Positions 47,153-48,562 of a stretch of 64,000 nucleotides of DNA are shown here, in pieces. The stretch comes from Psychrobacter sp. bablab_jr014. GTDB lineage: Bacteria > Pseudomonadota > Gammaproteobacteria > Pseudomonadales > Moraxellaceae. The notes beneath the pieces are model-generated. The model saw only the letters and a list, made by a program, of their open reading frames with translations, did no database searches and was not told the DNA's origin. The stretch is taken from NCBI RefSeq assembly GCF_016464015.1, contig NZ_JACDXT010000005.1:1-64000 (forward strand), in the 5' to 3' direction. The first letter of the stretch is position 1; the number at the start of each line of letters is the position of its first letter. Both the position numbers and the translations under genes were made by a program.

Positions 47153-47578
47153 TTAGTGATGCTTGTTGCCGTGTTTGTGGCCTTTATCATGCTTATGACC
47201 GTTGTTGTGCTTGTTACCGTGTTTTTTACCGTTTGAGCGGTCATAAGCGCGGCCACTGACGAGACGTAGCGATGGATAGGTGTAAATCATTTCATAATCT
47301 TGGTTGTTTCTGCGTGCATGTGCCAAAATGCGGTCGTTATTGCCTTTGACCTTACGCACGTCCATCACTTTATAACCACTACGTTCTAAGCGAGCGCGTA
47401 GCTCTTGGCTGACGTGACCGAAATTCGCTTTATTACCATCTCGATAGACCCCGTTACCGTCATATTTATCATGACCATCATAGTAGGGCGTACTGACACA
47501 CCCTGCGGTAATACCCAGTAGGGCAGTCATGCATCCAGTGGCCACCATCTTGGGCAGTGAAATATTAAAAAAGGACAT
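47153..47578 (-). CDS. lipoprotein with His-rich C terminus
   Basis: 141 residues. The signal sequence ends in the lipobox ITAGC (Cys near 27), so the protein is lipid-anchored. A middle domain (about 50-110: HVSQELRARLERSGYKVMDV, YEMIYTYPSLRLVSGRAYD) looks folded. The last 25 residues are a His/Lys/Gly repeat (HGNKHNNGHKHDKGHKH) that should bind transition metals such as Ni or Zn. No family recognised. It is the divergent neighbour of the candidate small RNA locus; the gap between holds the GacA-like box. Confidence 0.78.
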   Translation of the reverse strand: MSFFNISLPKMVATGCMTALLGITAGCVSTPYYDGHDKYDGNGVYRDGNKANFGHVSQELRARLERSGYKVMDVRKVKGNNDRILAHARRNNQDYEMIYTYPSLRLVSGRAYDRSNGKKHGNKHNNGHKHDKGHKHGNKHH

Positions 47579-47798: not shown

Positions 47799-47816
47799 TG
47801 TAAGCATATGCTTACA
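47799..47816. promoter_or_regulatory. GacA/UvrY-type binding palindrome
   Basis: TGTAAGCATATGCTTACA is a perfect 18-bp palindrome and equals the consensus TGTAAG-N6-CTTACA described for GacA upstream activating sites of rsmY/rsmZ in pseudomonads. It lies about 55-70 bp upstream of the likely start of the GGA-rich RNA. Confidence 0.8.
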
Positions 47817-47862
47817 AGCAATGACGAAAATGCGACTTAACATTCGTTACGCATTTTGACAT

Positions 47863-47868
47863 TATAGT
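47863..47868 (+). promoter_or_regulatory. possible -10 element of the GGA-rich RNA
   Basis: TATAGT without a good -35 at 16-18 bp spacing, which would suit an activator-dependent promoter. TTGACA at 47856-47861 is an alternative -35, but then no good -10 follows. The start site is therefore uncertain by about 15 nt. Confidence 0.4.
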
Positions 47869-47869
47869 C

Positions 47870-48155
47870 ACACGGCATAAGGGACTGTGACTCAAGGATT
47901 GAGTAGACCGTATTAAGGATAATGACTTATCTATCAGCGTCAGGAAGATACTGATACATAAGGTAAGGACACACCCTATACCCAATGACAAACGATTTGT
48001 TCACGGGTGCTGTAATGAAATGGGGCAGGAAGCCCGACTATCGCAAGCAGTAGAATGTCATGCAAGGATGTATGAAAATTCATCGTGATAGGTAATAAGG
48101 ATGGTTAACAATAAAACCGCATAACAATCTACTTGCTATGCGGTTTTATTGTCTT
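47870..48155 (+). ncRNA. candidate RsmZ/CsrB-type CsrA-sequestering small RNA
   Basis: About 280 nt with eight GGA motifs (47882, 47896, 47917, 47943, 47967, 48028, 48066, 48099). At least five lie in hairpin loops: ACTCA-AGGAT-TGAGT, ATTA-AGGA-TAAT, TATCAG...CTGATA with GGA inside, GGGC-AGGAA-GCCC and CATGC-AAGGAT-GTATG. This is the known architecture of CsrB/RsmY/RsmZ RNAs, which titrate the translational regulator CsrA/RsmA. It ends in a perfect 16-bp hairpin (48108-48152). A consensus GacA box lies upstream. Strand is fixed by the GGA orientation and by the box-to-terminator order. No similarity search was possible. Confidence 0.8.
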
Positions 48156-48156
48156 T
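48108..48156 (+). terminator. terminator hairpin of the GGA-rich RNA
   Basis: ACAATAAAACCGCATA (48108-48123) pairs perfectly with TATGCGGTTTTATTGT (48137-48152), 13-nt loop, followed by CTTTG. The T run lies mostly inside the stem, as in many bidirectional terminators. Confidence 0.75.
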
Positions 48157-48358: not shown

Positions 48359-48562
48359 TTAGTAGTCGTTAGTGGCACGCCAGTCATCCACTTCGCGCTC
48401 TGCTTGGTCTTGGGCGTGACCATAACGTTCTTGCAAACGGCCAACCAGTTTATCACGGCTGCCTTCAATGTAATCTAAATCGTCATCGGTAAGCTCACCC
48501 CACTTTTGCTTGACTGAGCCTTTCATTTGGTTCCAGTTACCTTTCATTATGTTCTTGTTCAT
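48359..48562 (-). CDS. CsbD family stress protein (YjbJ-like)
   Basis: A 67-residue hydrophilic protein with the CsbD pattern MKGNWNQMKGSVKQKWGELTDDDLDYIEGSRDKL (first 40 residues) and a 'LQERYGHAQDQAEREVDDW' helix. CsbD-like proteins are highly expressed under general stress and stationary phase; the molecular role is unknown. AAGGA sits 9 nt before the start. A terminator follows at 48265-48292. It is adjacent to the candidate Csr-type RNA on the opposite strand. Confidence 0.92.
   Translation of the reverse strand: MNKNIMKGNWNQMKGSVKQKWGELTDDDLDYIEGSRDKLVGRLQERYGHAQDQAEREVDDWRATNDY

Follow-up and report, generated by a model that had tools for sequence, protein, structure and literature searches.

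The candidate locus occupies positions 47799–48152 on the plus strand of the window (the 64,000-nucleotide stretch of DNA from Psychrobacter, family Moraxellaceae, that was analysed). The two genes that flank it both lie on the strand opposite to that of the predicted RNA, which is referred to here as RNA 1. The upstream neighbour (47153–47578, minus strand) encodes a 141-residue protein for which neither Pfam nor NCBIfam gave a match at the thresholds applied. The convergent neighbour, which lies outside RNA 1, is a csbD-like gene (48359–48562, minus strand; Pfam CsbD 78.8 bits against a cut-off of 40). No plus-strand open reading frame of at least 60 residues covers the stretch and stop codons occur in all three plus-strand frames, in agreement with the original prediction that it has no protein-coding explanation.

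The locus begins with a perfect TGTAAG-N6-CTTACA palindrome (TGTAAGCATATGCTTACA, 47799–47816), the consensus given in PMC4950607 for the GacA box, an upstream activating sequence. A pattern search of the whole 2.88 Mb genome returned this perfect box only. The box is followed by a promoter-like stretch (47837–47868, plus strand) that comprises TTAACA (47837–47842) and TATAGT (47863–47868), the latter overlapped by CATTAT (47860–47865). A consensus promoter scan of the region includes TTAACA-17-CATTAT among its sites; such sites are not enriched in the region (three found versus 3.7 expected from shuffles). We infer that 47837–47868 is the promoter of RNA 1, and the position of the TATA element places the predicted start near 47874. 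A conserved CGACTTAACA element (CGACTTAC in the divergent group of genomes described below) is also present between the box and the TATA element (window 47833–47842 and relatives), and may serve as a −35 element or provide a second half-site for GacA.

The predicted Rsm-type small RNA would extend from 47874 to 48152 (plus strand, ∼279 nt), as suggested by conservation across the genus, conservation of its GGA motifs, covariation and the lack of an open coding frame. It ends in a terminator-like stem of 16 bp (48108–48152; arms 48108–48123 with 48137–48152) with a U-rich 3′ arm, which is present in the fold and is 99.5% paired in an alignment of 42 sequences. This stem is not listed by a simple terminator scan, which requires a T run 3′ of the stem, and being nearly symmetric it could double as a terminator for csbD on the opposite strand.

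The comparative material came from 105 genomes of the genus. A DNA match to RNA 1 was found in 103 of them, including all 97 of good quality, some of the matches being short, partial or weak. Four genomes gave weak matches only (G032, G044, G056 and G074), and the two without a match (G063 and G095) are 83% and 89% complete, respectively. The alignment work took in 99 of the 105 genomes, with 89 main-clade loci (86 distinct sequences) and 11 loci from ten divergent genomes. A relative of the csbD-like gene is present at 80 of the 89 main-clade loci and nine of the 11 divergent-group loci as fetched, some loci being cut by contig ends. The exact 18-mer box is found in 78 of the 86 distinct main-clade sequences and differs by one base in the remaining eight, and in 77 of the 86 the distance from the box start to the TATA element is 64 bases.

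These features bear on whether the locus might belong to a neighbouring mRNA, as a leader or tail with CsrA sites, as opposed to being a free RNA, since CsrA sites are known in mRNA leaders too (PMC7652899). We regard this as highly improbable: both flanking genes are on the opposite strand, and RNA 1 has its own box and TATA element at fixed spacing as well as its own conserved terminator-like stem.

Eight GGA motifs are present on the plus strand of RNA 1, at 47882, 47896, 47917, 47943, 47967, 48028, 48066 and 48099. In the 86 main-clade sequences, to which all GGA conservation figures refer (the divergent group was assessed by eye and from counts), they are kept, from 5′ to 3′, in 78, 84, 84, 86, 82, 85, 86 and 86 sequences. 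Their mean conservation is 97.5%, compared with 36.3% for the 220 other triplets, and none of 20,000 random draws of triplets matched it. The average number of GGA per RNA in these sequences is 8.5, compared with 0.16 for TCC.

Five of the motifs are displayed in the loops of hairpins. Pairing was assessed in an alignment of 42 of the 86 distinct sequences, chosen at less than 93% identity (alignment A1; a second alignment, A2, holds 32 of these 42), in which every one of the five loop hairpins is at least 92% paired. Hairpin 1 (ACTCA-AGGAT-TGAGT, 47890–47904, plus strand) has 99.0% of cells paired, with its GGA in 84 of the 86 sequences. Hairpin 2 (TATTA-AGGA-TAATG, 47911–47924, plus strand; GGA in 84 of 86) is 96.2% paired and three of its five pairs have changes on both sides. 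Hairpin 3 (47926–47962, plus strand; GGA in 86 of 86) consists of a long outer stem, 92.6% paired with nine of ten pairs changed on both sides, and an inner 3 bp stem around AGGAA that is 98.4% paired. Hairpin 4 (GGGC-AGGAA-GCCC, 48023–48035, plus strand; GGA in 85 of 86) is 99.4% paired, one pair having changed from G–C to A–U in six of the 42 sequences. Hairpin 5 (TCATGCA-AGGA-TGTATGA, 48058–48075, plus strand; GGA in 86 of 86) is 92.5% paired with five of seven pairs changed on both sides, and is enclosed by conserved outer helices that are 98.8% and 95.1% paired. The several GGA in loops that are expected of the CsrA-sponge class are therefore present, as eight conserved motifs of which five lie in the loops of covarying hairpins.

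RNAalifold analysis of the 42 diverse sequences gave 69 pairs, 37 of them with changes on both sides. A 62-pair structure, evaluated on the same sequences, has 96.9% of cells paired; the figure is 89.8% for shuffles and does not exceed 46.3% for slid versions of the structure. Because the structure was partly derived from the alignment on which it was evaluated, it has an advantage over its slid versions, and kinship among the sequences can inflate the contrast with the shuffles. The number of cells changed on both sides is 186, compared with 52 in shuffles. The measure least affected by circularity and kinship is the number of pairs changed on both sides, which is 37 compared with 17.3 in shuffles.

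An array of GGA motifs and hairpins could also arise by chance in a purine-rich stretch, and the composition of the single sequence provides mixed evidence on this point. The plain GGA count in 47872–48104 lies within the range of shuffles (eight compared with 5.4 in base shuffles, P = 0.13, and 6.3 in dinucleotide shuffles, P = 0.25), as a chance array would have it, and was dropped as support. AGGA is in excess in the same interval, with seven found and ∼1.9 expected (P = 0.0016 for base shuffles and 0.001 for dinucleotide shuffles), and for AGGA followed by A or T there are six where ∼1.1 are expected, a number reached in none of 1000 dinucleotide shuffles. The single-sequence fold of RNA 1 (−79.7 kcal/mol) has a z-score of −3.76, with no equally stable structure among 200 shuffles. 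The ATTA-AGGA-TAAT hairpin is missing from this fold, yet is supported by the comparative evidence. We take the comparative evidence, namely the conservation of the GGA triplets and the covariation of the stems, to be decisive: with motifs conserved across the genus and stems changed on both sides, a chance array is scarcely credible. The box, the eight GGA motifs, the five hairpins and the 16 bp stem named in the original prediction are all present, and the motifs and loop pairing, which it proposed to compare in related genomes, are kept there.

The same prediction fared less well in Rfam, where it had proposed a comparison with the CsrB, RsmY and RsmZ models. A search of the window against 4227 Rfam families, those of the CsrB, CsrC and RsmZ kinds included, returned five tRNAs only at the gathering score. 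The RsmY model (RF00195) scores RNA 1 at 24.6 bits, compared with a gathering score of 57. This sub-threshold match carries little weight and was rejected as support, as the model also gives sub-threshold matches in five of 14 control genomes; a search of this whole genome with RsmY gave no match at an E-value of 0.01, and in none of the family's 348 genomes did the model reach its cut-off. Nor was there an Rfam match at the gathering score for nine loci that hold other copies. RNA 1 is thus outside every Rfam family at the curated threshold. A covariance model of our own (R1), which represents the 3′ half of RNA 1 only, has a match in 102 of the 105 genomes of the genus; outside the genus it has weak matches in 16 of 243 genomes, with a best E-value of 1.9 × 10⁻⁶. 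A further R1 match at G000:C36:4975-5088, where there is neither AGGA nor a box, was taken to be a chance terminator-like hairpin.

The protein partners of such an RNA are encoded in the same genome. The csrA gene, the presence of which the original prediction had asked about, is found once (G000:C2:9220-9375) and encodes a protein of 81 residues (NCBIfam CsrA 118.9 bits against a cut-off of 73). Residues 1–57 are close to solved carbon storage regulators and include Leu4 and Arg44, both of which are highlighted in a figure legend of PMC7652899. Beyond the core in common with a solved carbon storage regulator of 61 residues, this CsrA (L116:2131-2376, minus strand) has ∼20 further residues. 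A single GerE/LuxR-type protein was found in the genome, and the model that fits it best is UvrY/SirA/GacA (242 bits, 81 bits above the next model, with a curated cut-off of 280); for a 1149-residue hybrid kinase that carries an Hpt domain the best model is BarA (516 bits, with a curated cut-off of 890). GacA-like and GacS/BarA-like proteins are therefore encoded in the same genome as CsrA, as the Gac–Rsm cascade implied by the original prediction would have it, with the best NCBIfam models of both below their curated cut-offs. A gene for a 588-residue sensor kinase lies directly 3′ of the gacA-like gene (L115:572-2338, minus strand). The arrangement is the same as that of DJ41_1407 and gacA in Acinetobacter baumannii, where DJ41_1407 comes after gacA and is reported to phosphorylate GacA (PMC12609611).

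We consider it very probable that RNA 1 is a Gac-controlled, CsrA-sequestering small RNA of Psychrobacter, belonging to the RsmZ/CsrB functional class; the sponge reading of the original prediction was favoured by each of the tests that could be run on it apart from the Rfam search. Judging from the sequence, RNA 1 would be transcribed under the control of GacA, bind CsrA and affect CsrA targets as follows. GacS would phosphorylate GacA, which would bind the box at 47799–47816 and turn on the promoter, giving an RNA of ∼279 nt that terminates at the 48108–48152 stem. Up to about four CsrA dimers could then be bound by the eight GGA sites, of which five lie in hairpin loops, and the bound CsrA would thereby be withdrawn from its mRNA targets. 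Sequestration of CsrA in this way has been described for CsrB (PMC7652899) and for Rsm RNAs (PMC4950607), and PMC7652899 quotes the CsrB repeat and a SELEX consensus to which the GGA sites of RNA 1 are similar.

Two further RNAs with a box-plus-GGA design were identified in the genus. RNA 2 (G000:C35:96483-96753, also L004:1260-1530; minus strand) adjoins a surA-like gene (178 bits with the SurA model, whose cut-off is higher) and has on its other flank a gene without an NCBIfam match. Its box contains one mismatch (G000:C35:96724-96741) and is followed on the minus strand by four AGGA and a terminator-like stem, and its fold has a z-score of −4.95 relative to shuffles. RNA 2 has a match in 102 of the 105 genomes, 91 of them at an E-value of 10⁻¹² or better, and many matches cover part of the query. 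An alignment of 30 loci (29 distinct sequences) from the 102 matching genomes has the four GGA conserved in 29, 29, 28 and 29 of the 29. Another one-mismatch box, at G000:C12:136075, was dropped, having one AGGA on the better strand.

RNA 3 was discovered with model R1 between a gene that we interpret as prc-like and one for a peptidyl-prolyl isomerase (PRK10737, which we take to be SlyD, so that the gene is referred to as slyD-like). It is represented by loci L226–L234 and L260–L271 (for example L228:650-975). In nine loci the box or a one-base variant lies 161–170 bases before the R1 match. RNA 3 contains between five and seven GGA and almost no AGGA. For the RNA 3 of L228, six of seven GGA are kept in 15–18 of 18 distinct sequences and the seventh in two of 18, with a mean conservation of 83% for GGA and 68% for other triplets; this contrast is weaker because the 21 aligned loci (18 distinct sequences) are mostly close relatives. 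In 79 of the 105 genomes RNA 3 has a match that spans most of the query at an E-value no higher than 10⁻¹⁸. In this genome the prc–slyD gap has hairpins, without a box or a GGA array, and RNA 3 is not present.

The divergent group has 25 perfect boxes at its 11 loci in ten genomes (L094–L104), with two or three per locus in nine of the 11, and the 320 bases after each box contain three or more AGGA on the better strand. Some of these box-plus-GGA units appear to be longer than 350 nt. Across the genus, perfect boxes are found in 102 of the 105 genomes, with a total of 205 compared with four for a reversed control pattern. On balance we favour a Psychrobacter Gac–Rsm cascade that uses up to three sponge RNAs of distinct sequence (at the csbD, surA-like and prc–slyD loci), none of them in Rfam, with a copy number that varies by lineage: two in this species, three in most, and two or three units per locus in the divergent group.

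A covarying structure by itself names no partner, and RNA 1 might instead be a structured small RNA whose main role is a different one, such as base pairing with mRNA, its AGGA loops binding a partner other than CsrA. This seems most unlikely to us. Conservation in RNA 1 is concentrated in the GGA triplets and much of the remainder drifts, unlike a base-pairing seed; the box, csrA and the gacA-like gene indicate the Gac–Rsm path; and the genus has two more RNAs of the same design.

The sequestering RNA that we propose can be compared with known systems. Unlike CsrB and CsrC of Escherichia coli, RNA 1 is without an Rfam match. CsrB also has more CsrA sites than the eight of RNA 1. The likeness to the E. 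coli RNAs lies in the repeated GGA loops that sequester CsrA there (PMC7652899) and in a host CsrA with residues 1–57 close to solved carbon storage regulators. With RsmZ, RsmY and RsmX of Pseudomonas RNA 1 has in common the upstream TGTAAG-N6-CTTACA box, GGA in hairpin loops and the presence of several paralogues per genome, tandem copies included (PMC4950607, PMC4353343 and PMC7911923). The box starts 75 bases before the predicted start of RNA 1, and PMC4950607 places the Pseudomonas site at −75 (rsmY) and −196 (rsmZ). RNA 1 differs from the Pseudomonas RNAs in having no gathering-score match to the Rfam models, in its neighbouring genes and in its length, the rsmX copies being 110–111 nt (PMC7911923) compared with ∼279 nt. 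By its predicted way of working RNA 1 is one of the Csr/Rsm class, whose sequence-testable defining features it displays.

The original prediction knew of no well-described RNA of this type in the group, a statement that has to be tempered for the family. Table 2 of PMC5568370 contains predicted Rsm RNAs for Acinetobacter strain ADP1, PMC7366521 gives such RNAs in brackets for A. baumannii, and PMC4993456 lists candidates of the Rfam RsmY and RsmZ types for A. johnsonii. The Acinetobacter RNAs differ in sequence, which has diverged to the point that R1 gives no more than its few weak matches outside Psychrobacter. Among the literature matches listed, which do not include the 2006 paper behind the Acinetobacter predictions, no description of a Psychrobacter RNA of this type was found. 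Within the text available for these matches, the A. johnsonii paper (PMC4993456) is the only one to name both RsmZ and Psychrobacter, and the paper that pairs 'CsrA-regulating' with Psychrobacter has the genus name in its reference list only.

The RNAs described here expose a gap in the Rfam coverage of this family of the Gammaproteobacteria. For Psychrobacter, a genus of cold, salty habitats, the named RNAs and boxes open the Gac–Rsm circuit to direct tests. Of the 348 genomes of the family, 288 have one or more perfect boxes, a box being expected by chance in some of them, and in the largest other genus of the family (presumably Acinetobacter) seven of the 30 box loci retrieved have at least four AGGA after the box and 23 do not. 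For Acinetobacter, a 15 bp GacA box has been proposed from the promoters of GacA-dependent genes (PMC12609611); in the available text of that paper RsmZ and RsmY are named for Pseudomonas aeruginosa only, and sRNA, small RNA, CsrA and RsmX do not occur as word starts. The presence of the classical box before GGA arrays in the family suggests that an indirect GacA route is worth testing in Acinetobacter. If the same design works there, much of the GacA regulon of Acinetobacter would be indirect, acting through RNAs of this kind.
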